Assembly: GCA_021296095.1 (NCBI GenBank)
Contig: JAGWBB010000018.1
Coordinates: 1 to 48,669, forward strand
Source: Desulfurellaceae bacterium
GTDB taxonomy: Bacteria; Desulfobacterota; Binatia; Bin18
DNA length: 48,669 bases
Reading direction: 5' to 3'
Shown here: positions 17,118 to 39,000 of the stretch, piece by piece
Position numbering within the stretch: the first letter of the stretch is position 1
How the letters are laid out: the number at the start of each line of letters is the position of its first letter
Made by a program: the position numbers and the translations under genes
Notes under the pieces: generated by a model
Seen by the model: the letters and a program-made list of their open reading frames with translations, nothing else
What the model was told of the DNA's origin: nothing
The model's database searches: none

Positions 17118-18221
17118 TCACCGGTCCCGATGGTCGCGCGTCTGGCCGGGAGCCTTGGGGTGGGCGTAGGGGTGGGGGCGCTCGGTGGCCACCTCAAACG
17201 GAATGGCCTCCAGGTGGGCCATGCTGTCCCGGTAGGCGGCGACCAGGCGGTCTTCGCCCTCGTAATTAAACGGGTCTTGGAGGCGTTTCTCGATTTCCCC
17301 GCCCCGTTCCGGTTGATGCTCGACATACCACCTGACGGTGCTGGTCAGGGCGTCTTCGACCGTGTGGACATCGGTGTAGCCGAGCTGCTTCTTGATCTTG
17401 GTCAGATCGACGACCCGGTGGTGGGAGCTTTGCTGCATGGCATACGGATGGGACGGGCGGGCGATATGGTGCGGCATGCTGACAATATCCCACTCGTAGT
17501 CCAGCTCCTTGGAGATGACCTCAACGACCTGACGCAGGCTGAACTGCTGCTCGTCGCCACAGTTATACAGCTGGCCGGCCGAGGCTTCGGGCTGATCCAC
17601 GGCCAGCAGAACGGCGTGGGCCAGATTGCCCGCATAGCCGTGGGTAAACAGCATCAGCCCGGCATCCGGCAGAATGATATACGGCCGCTTATCCAGGATA
17701 CGCCGGATGACGCTCCACTCGCGGGGGACGAGTTGGTACGGGCCGTAGACGTAGGGATAGCGGAAGTAGGCGGCGGTCGGGTGGGTTTCCAGGACGGCCT
17801 GCTCGGTCTGGGCAATCAGATACGCAAAGCGCAGTTCCTCCTCGCTATCGACCACCGGCGCGTCTTCGGGAACCGCCCCCTTCAGGCCGGGCGGGAACAG
17901 CGCATAAGCGTCCATATAGCCCCGATAGCTGGCCACCCCACCGACCCCGACAAAGCGGCCGACTTTGCCGACCAGGGCTTCGGCCACAAAGCGGATGCGA
18001 CCATAGGTCACCACGGCCAGATCAAAGGTTCGTGTGCCCAGGGCCTCATCAATGGTTTCCCGAAAGTGCGGGTCGCCGTGAATATGTTCGACCTGGGGCG
18101 GTATCTCGGGAATTTCGTGGGTTCCGCGGTGAAAAATCGTGACCTCATAGCCCCGTTCGATCAGGCCATTGACGATAAACGGGCCGGTTGGGCCAGTCCC
18201 TCCGACGACAAGTGCTTTCAT
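17118..18221 (-). CDS. NAD(P)-dependent epimerase/dehydratase-like protein
   Basis: 367 residues, extended SDR. The dinucleotide loop is GGTGPTGPFI (7-16), followed by GYEVTIFHRG. The region that should hold the catalytic YxxxK reads AYLIAQTEQA, with Tyr134 but glutamine at 138 in place of lysine. It resembles isoflavone-reductase/CSP41-type atypical SDRs that have diverged active sites. FRYPYVYGPYQLVPREW and the later LYNCGDEQQFSLRQVVEVI are typical substrate-side motifs. Redox activity on a nucleotide sugar is therefore not assured. It sits 13 bases upstream of hicB on the same strand; the pairing is probably accidental. Confidence 0.8.
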   Translation of the reverse strand: MKALVVGGTGPTGPFIVNGLIERGYEVTIFHRGTHEIPEIPPQVEHIHGDPHFRETIDEALGTRTFDLAVVTYGRIRFVAEALVGKVGRFVGVGGVASYRGYMDAYALFPPGLKGAVPEDAPVVDSEEELRFAYLIAQTEQAVLETHPTAAYFRYPYVYGPYQLVPREWSVIRRILDKRPYIILPDAGLMLFTHGYAGNLAHAVLLAVDQPEASAGQLYNCGDEQQFSLRQVVEVISKELDYEWDIVSMPHHIARPSHPYAMQQSSHHRVVDLTKIKKQLGYTDVHTVEDALTSTVRWYVEHQPERGGEIEKRLQDPFNYEGEDRLVAAYRDSMAHLEAIPFEVATERPHPYAHPKAPGQTRDHRDR

Positions 18222-18243
18222 TTGTCCTCCCTATTCTTCGGCA

Positions 18244-18564
18244 TCAGTCCCCACCATCCAGAATCCGAGCGATATCTCGTCCACCGTACAGGACACGCTC
18301 GATGAAAACGGTCTGCTCTGTGACACGGTAAAAAATAAGATGTCTGGTAAACCCTCGAATGCGCCAGATGCGGAGTCCCTGTAACCGTGGATGGGAAGTC
18401 TGGTACTGTCTGCCCATTTCCGGTTGTTGCGCTAACTGTTCAAACGTCCTGCGTGCGGCTGTAACAAATCGCCTGGCAGCAGACGGACTATCTTGCAGAA
18501 TATCCGTGGTCGTTGCAACGAGGTCTTCTTCCACCGCTCGCTCAACAACAAGCTGCCGTTTCAC
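18244..18564 (-). CDS. parE: ParE/RelE-superfamily toxin
   Basis: 106 residues, full length for the ParE/RelE fold. It begins with a strand and helix (QLVVERAVEEDLVATTTDIL), then SAARRFVTAARRTFEQLAQQPEMG, and ends with the beta-sheet RIWRIRGFTRHLIFYRVTEQ and VLYGGRDIARIL, the classic ParE ending. The ParE branch poisons DNA gyrase whereas RelE cuts mRNA; the pattern FxxFxxxLxxxPxxG and the ParD-like partner favour ParE. It overlaps the antitoxin gene by 4 bases (ATGA). Unlike the other toxin loci here, both partners look intact. Confidence 0.88.
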   Translation of the reverse strand: MKRQLVVERAVEEDLVATTTDILQDSPSAARRFVTAARRTFEQLAQQPEMGRQYQTSHPRLQGLRIWRIRGFTRHLIFYRVTEQTVFIERVLYGGRDIARILDGGD

Positions 18565-18851
18565 GACTTTCCAGGCTGATTTTTTCGTGCCGTCGGCTCT
18601 CGGACGATCCCTTCAAGGCGATCCCAAAACTCTGGGGTCAACTCGCGGTAGTCGCCCCGTTCCACCGCTTCCAGCAACTTCGCTTCCAGCTGCTGCCGGG
18701 TTGCTTGGTCCTGGTCGGCACGAATGAGGGAGCGGACATACTCGCTCACCGTATGAAAGCCCTGACTGGCGATACGCTCCTTAATGAACATTTCCATCGT
18801 CGCTGGAACAGGGACGCTCAAGATTTTCTTTGCATGGATTTCGGCGCTCAT
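18561..18851 (-). CDS. parD: ParD-like antitoxin
   Basis: 96 residues. The N-terminal ribbon-helix-helix reads LSVPVPATMEMFIKERI followed by GFHTVSEYVRSLIRADQD, the ParD DNA-binding dimer; a disordered, charged C-terminal tail would wrap ParE. It would neutralise ParE and repress its own promoter. No Shine-Dalgarno sequence precedes the ATG (AGACTGCGCTT), and a promoter-like TTGTGA-N17-TAGACT lies so close upstream that the transcript may be leaderless. The start is divergent from the restriction-modification gene, 118 bases away. Confidence 0.85.
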   Translation of the reverse strand: MSAEIHAKKILSVPVPATMEMFIKERIASQGFHTVSEYVRSLIRADQDQATRQQLEAKLLEAVERGDYRELTPEFWDRLEGIVREPTARKNQPGKS

Positions 18852-18857
18852 AAGCGC

Positions 18858-18886
18858 AGTCTATCAGTCGTCTGATTTATTCACAA
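18858..18886 (-). promoter_or_regulatory. Putative leaderless promoter of parDE
   Basis: On the minus strand, TTGTGA (18886-18881) and TAGACT (18863-18858) are separated by 17 bases. A start about 7 bases past the -10 would fall on the parD ATG. The same arrangement, TTGTGA-N17-TACGCT, occurs in the second copy of the direct repeat, upstream of the gene ending at 22492. The hexamers match sigma-70 consensus only moderately. Confidence 0.4.
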
Positions 18887-18893
18887 GAAATCA
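18862..18893. repeat. Direct repeat copy 1 flanking the RM block
   Basis: 32 bases matching 22864-22895 at 26 positions, in the same orientation: TATCAGT, ten variable bases, then the identical 15-base core ATTCACAAGAAATCA. The two copies lie 4.0 kb apart and enclose the restriction-modification gene and the small gene after it. Each copy also lies directly before a minus-strand gene, so a shared promoter or operator is an alternative explanation. Confidence 0.65.
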
Positions 18894-18901
18894 TATCCTG
18901 A

Positions 18902-18927
18902 AGAGTGTCCTGGTCCTTGTACACTCT
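18902..18927. promoter_or_regulatory. Inverted repeat and weak promoter upstream of the RM gene
   Basis: A 7-bp perfect inverted repeat, AGAGTGT (18902-18908) and ACACTCT (18921-18927), with a 12-base spacer lies in the parD/RM divergent region. It overlaps the candidate -35 (TTGTAC, 18917) of a weak plus-strand promoter whose -10 is CATAAA (18940, 17-base spacing). This would suit a dimeric repressor controlling the restriction enzyme, perhaps ParD or another ribbon-helix-helix protein. No regulator binding is demonstrated. Confidence 0.4.
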
Positions 18928-18969
18928 GCTGTTCAAGGGCATAAAAGCTCCTGTTGCGAGGGAACACCC

Positions 18970-21900
18970 ATGCCGATTGCCGCGGCTGCCAAACCAAAAG
19001 ACATCAAGGACTACTACGCGGCTCTGGACGCCTACGCTGAGCAGGGCGTGACGCATGAAGGGGCGGTGCGTTCGGCCTTTCAAAATCTGCTGGTCGAGAC
19101 CGGTCGGCGGGCCGGCTGGACGCTCATCCCGGAGTTGCCGCTGGGGTCCATCCGGCCTGACGGGACGTTTCGGGATGAGTATTTCCTCAACCGCGGCTAC
19201 TGGGAAGCCAAGGACACGAAAGATCGGCTTGAAGCCGAAATCGAGAAGAAAAGAGCCAAAGGCTATCCGCTGACAAACACGATTTTTGAAGACACCCGAC
19301 ACGCCTACCTGTACCAGAACGGTCAGGTCGCCATGCAGGTTGACCTGACCGAGCGGGAACAGCTCAGCAACCTGCTCATCACCTTTTTCTCGTACACGGA
19401 ACCCGCCCATGAGGACTTCGGCACGGCGGTGGGCGATTTCAAGCAGCGCGTGCCGGACCTGGCCCGCGGCCTTGTCCAGATCATCCAGGCTGCCCACACC
19501 ACCAACGCCAGATTCAAGCGGGCGGTTGCCAGTTTCTTTGAGCTGTGCCAGGACTCGCTGAATCCCAACATCAGTGAAGCGGCGGTTGACGAGATGCTGG
19601 TGCAGCATCTTTTGACCGAGCGGCTCATTCGGACGATTTTTGACAGTCAGGATTTTACCCGCCGGAACGTGATTGCGGCCGAGGTGGAAAAAGTCATCGA
19701 CGCCTTGGTCAGCAGGGCGTTCAACCGGCATGAATTTCTGAAACGGCTCGACCCGTTCTATCTGGCTATCGAGTCCGCCGCCCGAACGATTACGGATTTC
19801 AGCGAGAAGCAGCACTTCCTGAACGCCGTCTACGAGCGCTTCTTTCAGGGCTACTCAATCAAGGCAGCCGATACCCTTGGCATCGTCTACACGCCCCAGG
19901 AAATTGTCGATTTCATGTGTTCAAGCGTCGAGCAGGTGCTCAAGGAAGAGTTTGGCAAGCAGCTCAGCGACCCGGGCGTGAACATTCTCGACCCCTGCAC
20001 GGGAACCGGGAATTTCGTGGTGAACCTCCTGCGCCGCATTCCCAGGCGCGACCTGCGGCGCGTGTACACCGAGCAGCTGTTTGCCAACGAGGTCATGCTG
20101 CTGCCGTACTACATCGCCGCGCTCAACATCGAACATGCCTACTACGAACGCACCGGCGAGTATGAGCCGTTCGACGGCCTGTGCTTTGTTGACACGCTCG
20201 AACTGGCAGAGGGCAGCGAGCAACAATTTGCCTTTATGACCGAGGAGAACACCGCACGGGTAGAACGCCAGAAGACCGCCCCTATTACCGTTATTATCGG
20301 CAACCCGCCCTACAACGTCGGACAGATTAACGAAAACGACAACAACAAAAACCGGAAGTACAAAGTCATCGATGAGCGTATCAGAGTCACGTATGCCAAG
20401 GATTCCAGGGCGAGCAATGTCAACAAGCTCTCTGACGCCTACGTGAAGTTCTTTCGCTGGGCTGTAGAGCGGCTGGAAGAGCGGGACGGGATTGTATGCT
20501 TTGTGACCAATAACAGCTTCGTGGATCAAACCACTTTCGATGGCGTAAGGAAAAACCTGTTGCAAGATTTCACGAGTATTTACCACGTCGATCTGCACGG
20601 CAACGTCCGGGAGAATCCCAAGCTCAGCGGGACAACTCACAACGTATTCGGTATCCAGGTTGGCGTCGGCATTACGGTTGCTGTTCGTAAGGGGCAGCAC
20701 GTGGACCGTACCTTGCTGTATCATCGCGTTCCCGAAGGCTGGCGTAAGGAAGAGAAGCTGTCTTGGCTGACAAAGAAGCAGAACGTTGCAGGGGTAGAAT
20801 GGCGGACCCTGCAACCGGACGAGAGACACACCTGGATTCTTCCTCCACACGCTGATGAGTTCAGGGCACTACTCCCCATCGGGAGTCGAGAAACGAAAGC
20901 GAATAAGCAAAGAGACGAAGAGGCACTTTTCAAAACGTTCTCCATTGGCGTCAATACCAACCGGGATGCGTGGGTCTATTGCTTTGATAAAAATCAACTG
21001 GCCGATCAAGTCCAAAGGAGCATCGAAACATATAACAGCGAGATTGACCGTTGGAAGCGAGCAAAGATGCCGAAGGACATCGATAATTTCGTTGTCAATG
21101 ATGAATCAAAGCTCAAGTGGAGCAGCAGGCTTAAGGAGACATTTGCGCGTGGCCTCTATACGGATTTTGAAGAAGGAAAAATGAGGAACGCCCTCTATCG
21201 CCCTTTCACGAAACGCTTCTTATTCTTTGATTCCATCATGAATCATCGCCAAGGCATCTCGCCCTACATCTTTCCGACAACGGATGCCGAGAAGGAAAAT
21301 CTTCTTATTTGCGTTCCAAGCGTAGGAAATCGTAAAGATTTTGGTTGCATGGTCACCAATCTGATTCCTCCTTTAGACCTAGCCTTTGAGAAAGCCCAAT
21401 GCTTTCCCTTCTACGTCTACAACGAAGACGGCACGAACCGGCGTGAGAACATTACCGACTGGGGGCTTCAGCAGTTCCGCGACCATTACAACGACAATAC
21501 CATAACCAAATGGGACGTTTTCTATTACGTCTATGGCCTGCTGCACCATTCCGGCTATCGGGAGAAGTTCGCCGATAACCTGAAACGTGAGCTGCCGCGC
21601 ATTCCGTTTGCCCCAGACTTTCAGGCCTTCGCTTCTGCCGGTAAACAGCTTGCCCGGCTGCATCTCGAATACGAAGACCTTGAGCCGTATGATTTGCAAT
21701 GGATCGAATCGGACGAGGTGCCGCTCTCGTACCGCGTAGAGCGCCTAAAGCTCAGCAAGGACAAAACCGCCCTGATAGTCAACGATTCGCTCACCCTGGC
21801 CGGGATTCCCCCGGATGTGTTCGCCTATCGCCTCGGCAACCGCAGCGCCCTGGAGTGGGTCATCGACCAGTACCGTGTCAAGACGGACAAACGCAGTGGC

Positions 21901-22026
21901 ATCCGCTCCGACCCCAACCGTCTCGACGACGAAGAATACATCGTCCGCCTCGTCGGCCAAGTCGTCCGCGTCAGCCTGGAAACGGTAAGCATCGTCCGCG
22001 GTCTACCGGAAGATAGTGGATCATAA
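18970..22026 (+). CDS. Single-chain restriction-modification protein (N6-adenine MTase, type ISP/IIG-like)
   Basis: 1018 residues. At the N terminus, D64 (IRPDGTF) and E79-A-K81 (GYWEAKD) form a PD-(D/E)xK-like nuclease signature. Motif I of an N6-adenine methyltransferase is DPCTGTGNF at 341, and motif IV NPPY is at 445-448 (IIGNPPYNVGQ). The C-terminal third (about residues 630-1018) should be the target-recognition domain. The domain order and C-terminal half resemble type ISP enzymes (LlaBIII group), but no helicase motifs (GxGKT, DExx) are seen, so translocation is unlikely and a type IIG-like cut-and-methylate enzyme is inferred. The ATG has GAGGGA upstream. Bases 20850-21420 are visibly AT-richer than the flanks (24 G+C in the 60 bases from 21301), suggesting a transferred recognition domain. 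Confidence 0.85.
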   Translation: MPIAAAAKPKDIKDYYAALDAYAEQGVTHEGAVRSAFQNLLVETGRRAGWTLIPELPLGSIRPDGTFRDEYFLNRGYWEAKDTKDRLEAEIEKKRAKGYPLTNTIFEDTRHAYLYQNGQVAMQVDLTEREQLSNLLITFFSYTEPAHEDFGTAVGDFKQRVPDLARGLVQIIQAAHTTNARFKRAVASFFELCQDSLNPNISEAAVDEMLVQHLLTERLIRTIFDSQDFTRRNVIAAEVEKVIDALVSRAFNRHEFLKRLDPFYLAIESAARTITDFSEKQHFLNAVYERFFQGYSIKAADTLGIVYTPQEIVDFMCSSVEQVLKEEFGKQLSDPGVNILDPCTGTGNFVVNLLRRIPRRDLRRVYTEQLFANEVMLLPYYIAALNIEHAYYERTGEYEPFDGLCFVDTLELAEGSEQQFAFMTEENTARVERQKTAPITVIIGNPPYNVGQINENDNNKNRKYKVIDERIRVTYAKDSRASNVNKLSDAYVKFFRWAVERLEERDGIVCFVTNNSFVDQTTFDGVRKNLLQDFTSIYHVDLHGNVRENPKLSGTTHNVFGIQVGVGITVAVRKGQHVDRTLLYHRVPEGWRKEEKLSWLTKKQNVAGVEWRTLQPDERHTWILPPHADEFRALLPIGSRETKANKQRDEEALFKTFSIGVNTNRDAWVYCFDKNQLADQVQRSIETYNSEIDRWKRAKMPKDIDNFVVNDESKLKWSSRLKETFARGLYTDFEEGKMRNALYRPFTKRFLFFDSIMNHRQGISPYIFPTTDAEKENLLICVPSVGNRKDFGCMVTNLIPPLDLAFEKAQCFPFYVYNEDGTNRRENITDWGLQQFRDHYNDNTITKWDVFYYVYGLLHHSGYREKFADNLKRELPRIPFAPDFQAFASAGKQLARLHLEYEDLEPYDLQWIESDEVPLSYRVERLKLSKDKTALIVNDSLTLAGIPPDVFAYRLGNRSALEWVIDQYRVKTDKRSGIRSDPNRLDDEEYIVRLVGQVVRVSLETVSIVRGLPEDSGS

Positions 22027-22066
22027 GGACTCAGAGGTCATGTTCATTGTGCTTGAAGGAAAGCCT

Positions 22067-22453
22067 ATGCCGGAGCATTCTATAACGCTCACACTCCCTG
22101 ATGCGCTCTACCGACAAGCCCAGCAGGTCGCAAAAACAACCCAACAGGCAATCGAAGAGGTTGTCTTGGCATGGATACATCCTGCTCCAGAAGAGGGCCT
22201 GATGGGACTTGATGGGTTATCGAACGATGAGTTGCTCGCCGTCGCCCGAACGACCGTTCCCCCGGTTCACACCCGCCGGCTGCAAGACTTGCTCACTGCC
22301 CAGCGCCAGCGGAACCTCACCGAGAGCGAGCAACAGGAAGCGACAAAGCTTGTTGAACAAGAAGATCTGCTGACTCTTCGCAAATCGAAGGCTTTGTTAC
22401 TCCTCAAGCGGCGAGGCGCTCTCACTGGGAACCTCTCCGCCTTCGGTGTGTGA
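22067..22453 (+). CDS. Unrecognised small protein downstream of the RM gene
   Basis: 128 residues from ATG 22067, chosen because GAAGGAAA lies 6 bases before it; an upstream frame overlapping the RM stop by 11 bases could give 145. The N terminus SITLTLPDALYRQAQQVAKT looks like a ribbon-helix-helix or antitoxin-type start. The middle has SNDELLAVARTTVPP, and the C-terminal half is helical and leucine-rich (LTESEQQEATKLVEQEDLL, then LLLLKRR). Similar small proteins occur in cyanobacteria and other phyla, often beside toxin or defence genes; this is from memory and unnamed. It may be co-transcribed with the RM gene and regulate or modulate it. Confidence 0.65.
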   Translation: MPEHSITLTLPDALYRQAQQVAKTTQQAIEEVVLAWIHPAPEEGLMGLDGLSNDELLAVARTTVPPVHTRRLQDLLTAQRQRNLTESEQQEATKLVEQEDLLTLRKSKALLLLKRRGALTGNLSAFGV

Positions 22454-22491
22454 TGGCGTCGCTGGCCGATTGGCTTCGGTTGGGAAACGTT

Positions 22492-22848
22492 CTAAGACTG
22501 GTCAGATTGCGGTCGGGCGTCGGCTGTCCATTCTTCTTCGCTAAAGAAAACCAAGGAACAGAACTGTTCCGAATCTTCCTTCTCTTCTCGTGCAAGGACT
22601 CTGAGGGATGCAGCGCTACATTGAGCAACAGCGTCTTGCCAGTGCGCTGCTTGCAGAAAAGGCGACCAGTCCGCCGAATTGATCGGGACGTGAGGCTGAA
22701 CCTTGCCCTCTCGGATGTGCACAAAATCGATGCCAATGACCGCAATCCTCTTTTGTGAACATTCCTCCGCAAGCCGTGTGGCCTCTCGCAGCGGAAGGTA
22801 TTGCTCGTTCCCTCTGTCCATCGAACCTTTCTTCTCTTGGGTCTCCAT
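22492..22848 (-). CDS. Unrecognised acidic small protein, immunity-like
   Basis: 118 residues from ATG 22848; the frame is open to ATGs at 22875 and 22878, but those lie inside the direct repeat. A helix (YLPLREATRLAEECSQKRI) leads to a strand AVIGIDFVHI, then VPINSADWSPFL and a C-terminal helix and strand ending CSLVFFSEEEW. The composition is acidic with several Trp residues, as in many immunity proteins, but I recognise no family. No ribosome-binding site is seen. A promoter-like element identical in layout to that of parD lies immediately upstream. It is convergent with the small gene after the RM enzyme. Confidence 0.55.
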   Translation of the reverse strand: METQEKKGSMDRGNEQYLPLREATRLAEECSQKRIAVIGIDFVHIREGKVQPHVPINSADWSPFLQAAHWQDAVAQCSAASLRVLAREEKEDSEQFCSLVFFSEEEWTADARPQSDQS

Positions 22849-22863
22849 GCTCGTGAGATAGCG

Positions 22864-22895
22864 TATCAGTGACATCATTGATTCACAAGAAATCA
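22864..22895. repeat. Direct repeat copy 2 flanking the RM block
   Basis: Second copy of the 32-base repeat at 18862, with the same 15-base core ATTCACAAGAAATCA (22881-22895) and TATCAGT (22864-22870). On the minus strand it reads as TTGTGA-N17-TACGCT, with the -10 hexamer 11 bases before ATG 22848. The region right of it, to about 23030, has no clear coding potential and may be decayed. Confidence 0.65.
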
Positions 22896-23033
22896 GATGA
22901 GGAGGGAAGTGCTCGGGCAGGGGTAGGAGACCTCTCTCACAGCTCTTGTCAACAGGAATCCTCCTTAGTACGCTTCGCCAAGTGGCACGAACTCCCCGGC
23001 TGATTTTGGCCCCTCGTTCCTTAGCTCAGTCAC

Positions 23034-23221
23034 GGGTTATTGCGAAGGGGAATCGCATCCGGGATGTTCAACGATTGGTGGAGACATGTGGCGGCAGGAG
23101 ATCAAAGCGGGTCAAAAAAAGCAGCCTGCCCTTCGACACGGAGAGGAACCGCTACGAGTACCATTGGTATGAACATCCGGGTATTGGGCGCGTCGAGGTC
23201 AGACGTAAAAAGGTTGGCTGA
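23034..23221 (+). pseudogene. Toxin-C-terminal-like module without N-terminal start
   Basis: From about 23034 the frame reads VIAKGNRIRDVQRLVETCGG, then RRSKRVKKSSLPFDTERNRY and EYHWYEHPGIGRVEVRRKK, ending at TGA 23221. I recall closely similar segments at the C-terminal tips of polymorphic (RHS/CDI-type) toxins: K-GxxIRDVxRLVxxYGG followed by a basic stretch and HWYExxGIGR. No convincing start codon or ribosome-binding site exists: the frame is open back to TTG 22946, but that upstream part is not family-like. This is therefore best read as a displaced toxin tip rather than a working gene. Family assignment is tentative. Confidence 0.45.
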
Positions 23222-23224
23222 AAG

Positions 23225-23548
23225 ATGATCGTCAAGCTCCGTAGGCGAAACGCTCGCTATCCCGACCTCTCTTCGCACCAGCAGTATATGGTGATCGGGG
23301 TTGAGGCCGATGCGTTTCGTATCCTCAACGATGAAGGGCGTCCGTATCTGTATCCGGCTCGGCTCTTTGAGGTCCTTGATCCACGCGAGCCGGCGGATTG
23401 GGCCACCGAATTTGGTGAAGACGGCGAACGCTACGCTTATCCCCCCCCACTGAATAGCAACGGCTTTTTCGAGGACTTCTTTGAGTCCGACAAGGAAGCG
23501 GTAGCGACCTTCTGGCGCGTAGTGAACCAACGCCTTGCTGCGGCGTGA
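23225..23548 (+). CDS. Immunity-like small protein
   Basis: 107 residues, starting 3 bases after the toxin-like module. Pattern: YPDLSSHQQYMVIGVEADAF, RILNDEGRPYLYPARLFEV, then WATEFGEDGERYAYPPPL and a C-terminal GFFEDFFESDKEAVATFWR. I recall this SH3-like beta-barrel plus acidic tail (YPxL...YxVIGIEAD...ILxDEGxPxLYPxxLFEV) as a widespread family found beside polymorphic-toxin tips. Toxin-then-immunity order with near-zero spacing is the hallmark arrangement. It is intact whereas the toxin tip has lost its carrier, which fits an orphan immunity gene kept for protection against neighbours. Confidence 0.6.
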   Translation: MIVKLRRRNARYPDLSSHQQYMVIGVEADAFRILNDEGRPYLYPARLFEVLDPREPADWATEFGEDGERYAYPPPLNSNGFFEDFFESDKEAVATFWRVVNQRLAAA

Positions 23549-23582
23549 TTAACCAGCTTCTTCAAAACCGTGGTGGCCTTCC

Positions 23583-23828
23583 TCATCCTGTCCGCTTTCC
23601 TTCAGCCACAAACGGCGCCAAGGCGATGAGCACTCCTGTTTTCTCGACAATGTCCGCCCCAACCGGCGCCATGTTGTCTCCTGCCGCAAAGGTTTCCTCT
23701 TCTGTCCTATACCCTGCCTCGACATAGACCACCGTGTCTTCTCCCTGAATGGCTTTAGGGGGAACGATAAACCGGCTCAGAGCGTCGAGTGTTTTCGCGT
23801 CTCCAGTGAGAGCAAGCTGTGTTTTCAT
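23583..23828 (-). CDS. Unrecognised small protein after CocE hydrolase
   Basis: 81 residues, starting 16 bases after the CocE-type hydrolase ends and on the same strand, so probably co-transcribed. It opens MKTQLALTGDAKTLDALSRF, then a beta-rich part (DTVVYVEAGYRTEEETFAAG), and ends with IVEKTGVLIALAPFVAEG. No domain, signal peptide or membrane segment is clear. The ribosome-binding site GGGAGCGG is mediocre. It is most likely a small cytoplasmic protein of unknown role; overprediction cannot be excluded. Confidence 0.5.
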   Translation of the reverse strand: MKTQLALTGDAKTLDALSRFIVPPKAIQGEDTVVYVEAGYRTEEETFAAGDNMAPVGADIVEKTGVLIALAPFVAEGKRTG

Positions 23829-38328: not shown

Positions 38329-38364
38329 TTGACGGTATTGATGACTGACTGTATAGTCAGTCAT
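38329..38364 (+). promoter_or_regulatory. Promoter and TetR-type operator of the efflux operon
   Basis: -35 TTGACG (38329-38334), 17-base spacer and -10 TATAGT (38352-38357) form a good sigma-70 promoter. A perfect palindrome with 10-bp arms ATGACTGACT and AGTCAGTCAT around a 4-base centre (38341-38364) covers the spacer and -10. Its length and placement are typical of TetR operators, so the TetR protein encoded next should repress its own operon. The predicted start falls on or next to ATG 38365, so the transcript may be leaderless. Confidence 0.8.
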
Positions 38365-39000
38365 ATGACTAAAAATTCAGCCAGTACGAAAGAGGAGATG
38401 CTACGCGAGTTCCGCGTCCGGGAAATCCTGGACGCGACGTGTCGGGTGGTGTCGCGGTACGGCTTTCAGGGGGCAACCGTTGATCGCGTAGCAGAAGAGG
38501 CCAAGATCGCCAAGGGCACGATCTACCTGTATTTCCACAAAAAAGAAGAGCTGTTCAAAGCCGCAGTTGAACAGGGGATGGAAAACTTCACCAACCAGGT
38601 GCGGGGCGCCCCGCTCGAAAAAATCGTGTGTCTAGTCGAAGCCGTTCTGAAGTTGAGCGATACCAACCGCGACTTTTTCAAGATGCTGCTGCTTGAGCGT
38701 AACCTGCTGGCCGCCTCTCCAGACCATCCCGAGGCGTCCCATACGCTGGACCTGTACCTCGACTACATCCGCTTCATTGAGGAGACGCTCCAAGAGGCGG
38801 TCGATGCCGGAGTGCTGCGTCCGCATGACACCGAAGCCTCGGCCTTTGCCCTGAGCGAGTCGATGCGGGGCTGTTTCCAGCAGCGGGCGCTTGGGCTGAC
38901 GGCGCGCTCAGCCTCGGAAGATGCCGAGATTCTGCTCGACCTGCTGATGCATGGGGTGCTCAGTCCCGACTATAACGGCTACAAGGAGTTGTCATCGTGA
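38365..39000 (+). CDS. TetR-family repressor of the RND operon
   Basis: 211 residues. The N-terminal helix-turn-helix: REILDATCRVVSRYGFQGAT, VDRVAEEAKIAKGTIYLYFH, KKEELFKAA, canonical TetR. The C-terminal domain (EETLQEAVDAGVLRPHDTEA, LSESMRGCFQQRALG) should bind an effector, presumably a pump substrate. ATG 38365 abuts the palindromic operator with no SD; ATG 38398, behind AGAGGAG but with almost no spacing, is a possible downstream start. Its stop overlaps the adaptor start by 4 bases (GTGA), locking expression of regulator and pump together. Confidence 0.92.
   Translation: MTKNSASTKEEMLREFRVREILDATCRVVSRYGFQGATVDRVAEEAKIAKGTIYLYFHKKEELFKAAVEQGMENFTNQVRGAPLEKIVCLVEAVLKLSDTNRDFFKMLLLERNLLAASPDHPEASHTLDLYLDYIRFIEETLQEAVDAGVLRPHDTEASAFALSESMRGCFQQRALGLTARSASEDAEILLDLLMHGVLSPDYNGYKELSS

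Follow-up and report, generated by a model that had tools for sequence, protein, structure and literature searches.

A predicted parDE promoter-operator and its probable copy at the start of an unrelated small gene in a Desulfurellaceae bacterium

Excerpts of the published work on the closest described systems portray antitoxins that act at promoters. RK2 ParD represses its own operon and likely binds two adjacent palindromes, and Vibrio cholerae ParD2 binds a fragment upstream of its own gene (excerpt of PMC8251345). In Shewanella oneidensis, CopA of the ParE_SO-CopA_SO pair also represses pemK/pemI through a highly similar motif (excerpt of PMC8706911). Here we analyze a direct repeat in the window, a 48,669-nucleotide stretch of contig JAGWBB010000018.1 from the Desulfurellaceae bacterium assembly GCA_021296095.1, to which all positions refer unless another locus is named. 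One copy lies directly upstream of a parDE toxin-antitoxin module, and the other lies directly upstream of a small gene for an acidic protein.

Like RK2 parDE and V. cholerae ParD2, this module has the antitoxin gene first, the toxin gene second, and a predicted operator upstream, and self-repression is expected. Unlike them, it has one 21-bp dyad that overlaps the −35 box and a leaderless geometry; the likeness is one of gene order, operator position, and expected self-repression. CopA is an earlier case of a single antitoxin that also represses another promoter by a similar motif, although its second target is a toxin-antitoxin operon, whereas the second gene here has no recognized toxin-antitoxin role and its motif seemingly arrived with parD coding DNA. 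In Mycobacterium tuberculosis, 32 of the 37 toxin-antitoxin pairs with a primary start are leaderless, and a TANNNT box is centered 7 to 12 bp before the transcript start (excerpt of PMC3898074). The layout described below is comparable, but it was measured there by 5′ RNA ends and is predicted here, in an uncultured lineage. Direct repeats also accompany a ParE/ParD-like module of Microcystis aeruginosa, where two identical copies flank the toxin-antitoxin pair itself (excerpt of PMC7935541); here, each copy stands before a different gene, and the block that they enclose does not contain the toxin-antitoxin pair.

Antitoxins can regulate promoters outside their own operons, and at this locus a plausible first step toward such control is visible: an operator that appears to have been copied together with antitoxin codons, next to a gene that relatives carry without the copied operator. 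The origin of a new antitoxin target is, to our knowledge, seldom caught in sequence. A literature search combining "promoter capture" and "toxin-antitoxin" yielded a single paper, on an unrelated subject, and we claim no absence wider than that search.

The repeat and the predicted parDE promoter-operator

18244..18564, minus strand: ParE-type toxin, 106 amino acids (PF05016, 52.6 bits versus a cut-off of 23)
18561..18851, minus strand: ParD-type antitoxin, 96 amino acids (TIGR02606, 37.5 bits; homologues at 66% and 63% identity)
18862..18896, minus strand: first repeat copy (copy 1), the predicted promoter-operator of parDE (also present upstream of parD in genomes G015 and G007)
18873-18893: copy 1 dyad, TGATTTCTTGTGAATAAATCA on the minus strand, with the −35 box TTGTGA within it
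Downstream part of copy 1: 17-nucleotide (nt) spacer, −10-like TAGACT overlapping the end of the repeat, then 6 nt to the parD ATG

The antitoxin gene comes first and overlaps the toxin gene by 4 nt, as is usual in ParDE gene order, and the toxin belongs to the ParE fold. The antitoxin is related to known ParD families at scores under both cut-offs (TIGR02606, 37.5 versus 46.2 bits; PF03693, 16.2 versus 21). Searches against PDB sequences gave no match for ParD and one for ParE (6x0a, "Plasmid stabilization system"; E value of 2.2e-6).

A repeat search of the window placed the two copies at 18862-18896 and 22864-22898, in the same orientation and 4002 bases apart. They are identical at 28 of 35 positions (80%), or 26 of the first 32, and share a perfect 15-base core, ATTCACAAGAAATCA, at 18879-18893 and 22881-22895. 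As the sequence-only reading had described, each lies directly upstream of a minus-strand gene and reads TTGTGA-N17-TAGACT (copy 1) or TTGTGA-N17-TACGCT (copy 2). Beyond that description, the similarity extends about 35 nt into the genes. When the region 18000-23600 was shuffled with dinucleotides preserved, none of 100 shuffles matched the score of the repeat under either scoring; its log-odds score was 35.9, compared with a mean of 23.1 (standard deviation, 2.2; maximum, 29.6) for the shuffles. Counting the 15-mer at up to 3 mismatches across the whole window was not decisive alone (2 seen versus 0.53 expected; 10 of 100 shuffles reached 2). The organism's own genome, of 185 contigs and 4.3 Mb, has no exact core besides those of the two copies, and allowing 2 mismatches adds four places, versus 2 for a reversed-pattern control. 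At up to 1 mismatch, the core was matched in 4 of 58 genomes (the own genome and 57 relatives): at the two exact copies and, with 1 mismatch, once in G002, once in G006, and once in G015. The earlier reading had proposed that a core found at many unrelated places would count against it; that search instead found it very rare and linked to parD. The repeat is thus real and above chance.

Copy 1 is a near-perfect dyad, TGATTTcTTgtgAAtAAATCA, with 8 of 9 pairs matched, and it is the only one of 1652 AT-rich 21-mers in the window to reach 8 pairs. The core match in G015 sits just upstream of the closest ParD homologue, and a second close homologue, in G007, has TTATTTATTGTGAATATATCA at the equivalent position. 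Centered on GTG, the dyads at these three parD sites have 8, 8, and 7 of their 9 pairs matched, and each site has TTGTGA beginning exactly 35 nt upstream of the ATG. G015 and G007 represent other genera, with flanks unrelated to those of the window: blastn found no convincing similarity to the window in either beyond parDE and the element, and the similarity at the G007 parD locus begins where the repeat has its outer edge, at 18896. Because the element is kept at both parD genes while the flanks differ, it travels with parD. A pattern drawn from the three parD starts and copy 2, TKATTTMTTGTGAATNNNTSA, was searched at up to 1 mismatch in 148 genomes of the class, the own genome included, and matched five places, against none for a reversed-pattern control. 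The four exact places are those same four sites, a circular result in itself, and the near-absence of the pattern elsewhere is the informative part; the fifth place, in G514, has 1 mismatch and no ParD-like frame behind it. These findings argue strongly that copy 1 is the parDE promoter-operator; for this ParD type of an uncultured lineage, they supply a specific operator candidate.

Searches farther afield located few counterparts. None of the viral contigs searched carried an exact form of the dyad, and a ParD scan of other contig collections gave one locus in genome contigs (that of G007), none in viral contigs, and none in phage records. A megablast search of the region against plasmids gave no match, and in the 4 of 13 records inspected for distant plasmid ParDs, the upstream sequences are different.

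The spacing at the three parD starts (TTGTGA-17-TAGACT-6-ATG in the window, TTGTGA-17-TATGCT-6-ATG in G015, and TTGTGA-17-TACACG-6-ATG in G007) predicts a leaderless parD mRNA with the ATG as its first base. At copy 1, the −10-like box ends 6 nt before the start codon, the −35 box is within the 16- to 18-nt range of spacing, and there is no Shine-Dalgarno sequence, the layout that a leaderless promoter requires. The promoter-like element lacking a Shine-Dalgarno sequence that the sequence-only reading had described is supported, with the same spacing recurring between unrelated flanks in two other genera. More distant ParDs combine the same layout with another sequence, TTGCCA: those of G002 and G004, a further ParD gene of G007, and two genes on Rhizobium plasmids (for G004 and the further G007 gene, the distances were counted by eye). 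TTG and TA stand at these distances in 8 of the 11 ParD starts inspected, the others being from Paludisphaera, Pseudanabaena, and G011; the TTGCCA set is probably related, so the eight are not independent cases.

In a separate survey of 30 TIGR02606 loci across the class, 6 passed a strict layout test (TTG, a spacer of 16 to 18, TANNNT, 5 to 8 nt, and a start codon), with two loci that had no usable start (L088 and L096) counted as misses. A loose test detected no Shine-Dalgarno-like stretch at any of these six; of all 30 loci, 15 offer a candidate start that has one. When the sequences upstream of 48 candidate starts were shuffled in 200 rounds, 0.14 passed on average and 2 at most, and a reversed control gave 1. 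Leaderless ParD genes, as predicted from layout, are frequent in the class and not the rule, and leaderless antitoxin messages are to be expected in this uncultured lineage.

Two further observations concern parD loci. In a second ParD type (L051, L052, L053, L059, and L060), TTGCCAAnTTTTGCCA-like repeats stand directly before a leaderless-type start; they occur in Binatia relatives and in Rhizobium plasmids, a candidate tandem TTGCCA operator across phyla. In G007 (L057, 2768-2940), the parE frame that follows the parD homologue ends early, as judged by eye, which may leave a solitary antitoxin with its promoter.

A parD-like 5′ end before the acidic-protein gene

22492..22848, minus strand: acidic protein, 118 amino acids if translation begins at ATG 22848 (body common to relatives from about 22814 on)
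22828..22898, minus strand: copy 2 as extended, a probable orphan parD-like 5′ end (promoter-operator at 22864-22898 plus a match to approximately the first nine parD codons)

Profile models of parD starts (60 nt upstream and 90 nt into the gene) were used in nhmmer searches of the window. A model built from the G015 and G007 starts only found the window parD at 1.3e-16 and copy 2 at 0.0018 (aligned at 22899-22836), the only two places below an E value of 1; the next match stood at 2.5. With the window parD added to the model, copy 2 reached 3.7e-6, and the alignment (22902-22828) covered some nine codons of parD. Over its first 30 nt, parD agrees with copy 2 at 18 positions, one base out of register, a level reached at 5 of approximately 97,360 positions on both strands, parD itself and copy 2 included. 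By codons, ATG AGC GCC GAA ... AAG AAA of parD lines up with ACG AGC ATG GAG ... AAG AAA of copy 2. The site also retains the −35 box and its 17-nt spacing, as well as an extended −10 (TGATA..CT). Both window copies also have a dyad C where G015 and G007 have A, pointing to a source for copy 2 close to the window's own parDE. We consider a parD 5′ end the probable ancestor of copy 2.

The product of the gene behind copy 2 has no match over thresholds in Pfam, PADLOC, NCBIfam, or PHROGs and none in plasmids; a loose Pfam scan gave only FdtA (E value of 0.03, below cut-off), and a single-sequence AlphaFold2 model, with a mean pLDDT of 52.6, was too poor for a fold search. Homologues are present in 5 of the 15 other genomes of the family (G001, of the same genus, and G004, G005, G006, and G007), and the copy 2 element is absent upstream of all five. 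G001, G004, and G007 instead share a stretch whose Shine-Dalgarno-like GAGG stops 6 nt short of the ATG; in G005 and G006, the sequence is different. Since the element is missing from all five relatives and three carry GAGG, the original start signal of the gene has probably given way to that of parD.

DNA similarity to the five relatives ends at 22800-22814, about 14 bases or more from the end of the parD-like stretch (22828), and in G007 it resumes in the divergent neighbor from 22969. Some 155 to 160 bases of gene start and intergenic DNA thus differ in the window, with copy 2 inside them, and a query of 22800-22975 against 16 family genomes at an E value of 0.001 matched itself alone. The gene body is intact, with a ratio of nonsynonymous to synonymous substitution (dN/dS) of 0.19 against G001 (85 codons, the G001 copy running into a gap of Ns) and 0.12 to 0.15 against G004, G006, and G007; G005, whose homologue is split over two frames, was left out.

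Proposed origin of copy 2 and its alternatives

The explanation that we favor, and hold to be reasonably likely, is that copy 1 is the native parDE promoter-operator and that copy 2 is a piece of the same kind of module, grafted in frame onto the acidic-protein gene and replacing that gene's start. From the layout we infer promoter activity and leaderless translation at copy 1: RNA polymerase would use TTGTGA, the 17-nt spacer, and TAGACT and would start at or next to the parD ATG. ParD, as a ribbon-helix-helix antitoxin, would repress its own operon by binding the dyad that spans the −35 box, either by itself or, more probably, together with ParE, as the excerpts available for ParDE and related systems describe (PMC8251345 and PMC8706911). 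A piece of parDE comprising the promoter-operator and about nine parD codons would then have been joined in frame to an unrelated small gene 4 kb away, displacing a start served by a ribosome-binding site; this direction of replacement is read from the relatives. Copy 2 would most likely drive the gene as a transcript with ATG 22848 placed 11 nt after the −10-like box, near-leaderless only.

Weaker ParD control would be expected at copy 2, because one half of its dyad has decayed and only 6 of the 9 pairs remain, and control of it by ParD in the cell is a real possibility that falls somewhat short of an even chance. The part of the sequence-only reading that joined parDE and the acidic-protein gene through a shared regulator or promoter is accordingly plausible; the part that brought in the restriction-modification gene is not supported, as that gene runs the opposite way from copy 1 and nothing was found that ties it to the dyad. 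A more elaborate version, which we rate as unlikely, makes the acidic-protein gene a satellite of the toxin-antitoxin module: with the leaderless promoter-operator and first codons grafted on, the gene would have gained a parD-derived N terminus, and ParD/ParE levels would set its expression. Were this so, its product would join the toxin and antitoxin as a third partner whose expression keeps pace with that of the toxin, near a restriction-modification enzyme.

Several points weigh against this reading of the two copies. Only three parD sites define the operator, and the second box of one of them, TACACG in G007, is without the final T. A profile search of 395 genomes of the phylum at an E value of 1e-8 returned the window only and no further member, although G015 and G007 gave no row either, probably because they were outside the sample, and many genomes had only 12 candidates scored. 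A strict sigma-70 scan of 18200-23600 found no promoter, where shuffles averaged 2.2, and hand scoring of these hexamers reaches 8 of 12. At copy 2, the two nhmmer models place the gap differently, and the coding-side similarity is short. The parD start codon there reads ACG, with one base missing in the parD-like stretch, and the 6 dyad pairs are a level that 24 of the 1652 AT-rich 21-mers reach. Upstream of the dyad, the similarity of the copies is unconvincing (10 of 20, equalled at 1522 of 97,378 positions), and tblastn near copy 2 detected no further ParD or ParE remnant beyond chance.

The start of the acidic-protein gene could also be placed differently. The longest open reading frame (ORF) at copy 2 begins within the repeat, at ATG 22878, and a second ATG there, 22875, would give MSLIRYLTSM, in register with MSTISQRIEM of G001. 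That start would put the −10 box inside the gene, and the DNA does not align there; we regard it as less likely than ATG 22848.

The alternative that survives best, which we nonetheless think doubtful, is that copy 2 is the decayed stub of a second parDE module beside the acidic-protein gene, inactive, with the gene read from elsewhere or silent. The eroded dyad, the ACG codon, and the missing base would all be natural in a stub, and broken parDE modules do occur, as the G007 toxin frame suggests by eye. Against this, copy 2 retains the −35 box, the 17-nt spacing, and the extended −10, and the native start region of the gene is gone. The gene itself is intact and its body looks constrained (the pairwise dN/dS of 0.19, which may reflect older selection).

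Shared regulation in place of descent, with both copies serving as sites of a host regulator or an alternative sigma factor, would account for the same element before two unrelated genes. It is improbable: beyond the four sites, the 148 genomes hold one 1-mismatch place, unlike a host regulon, and the similarity continues into parD codons. A host regulon was considered as the principal explanation and rejected, with few further sites in the own genome or the class.

Still less probable is the proposal of the sequence-only reading that recombination between the copies would delete the 4-kb block between them, or more generally that the repeat marks the recombination or insertion boundary of a mobile or deletable restriction-modification block. 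The copies do have the same orientation and enclose a block of lower GC content with the restriction-modification gene in it. A joined copy would keep the exact 15-mer, which is absent from the 57 other relatives searched, and no empty junction was found; losses of the restriction-modification gene in relatives broke at other points, and the orthologous locus in G001 has no repeats. The repeat is short and imperfect, no recombinase was found among the scanned genes of the block, and both copies adjoin gene starts; in G015 and G007, the element goes with parD between different flanks.

Chance likeness of two AT-rich gene starts is hardly credible, for although 10 of 100 shuffles equal the windowwide 15-mer count, no local shuffle reaches the repeat score, and a model of foreign parD starts ranks copy 2 second in the window.

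The restriction-modification gene and its surroundings

18970..22026, plus strand: Type ISP/IIG restriction-modification enzyme, 1018 amino acids (PF18135, PF22240, PF02384, and PF07669 over cut-off; PADLOC REase_MTase_IIG)
22070..22453, plus strand: small gene between the copies, 127 amino acids, no family above cut-off

The 4-kb block between the copies consists of these two genes. The large enzyme has the coupler, N6-methyltransferase, and Type ISP C-terminal specificity domains (PF22240, PF02384, and PF18135, respectively). Pieces of its gene lie near the acidic-protein gene in G001, G004, G005, G006, and G007, with different break points; in window positions, the break points are 19259 to 22171 in G001 and 19304 to 20040 and 20235 to 21394 in G007. 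G001, which is 87% complete, has no close parD homologue, and other DNA occupies the position of the window's parDE. Because such pieces persist near the acidic-protein gene in relatives, and G001 lacks a close parD homologue, the restriction-modification gene seems to be part of an older island.

By blastn, the Type ISP/IIG gene was present only in pieces in L042 (G001:C697), L043 (G006), L044 (G007), and L045 (G004); the enzyme has seemingly been lost repeatedly, with the first 230 to 460 bp persisting. In the window, only about 40 bp separate the small gene from the acidic-protein gene. In G007, the counterpart of the small gene is followed directly by another ORF (L044, 5118-5543) that is missing from the window. 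The G007 ORF after the small gene (region L044, 4725-5543) resembles an HNH endonuclease by eye (CEYCQS...HIEHIFPEALGG).

On the far side of copy 2, a pair of small ORFs (91 and 107 amino acids; window 22946-23548) has no family match over cut-off. The pair is kept whole or in part near restriction-modification pieces in four family members (L043, L044, L045, and L046), in varying order, and resembles a toxin-immunity pair. Farther along the window, the repeat search also recorded an overlapping inverted repeat, ACTGACTGTATAGTCAGTCATATGAC, at 38344-38385.

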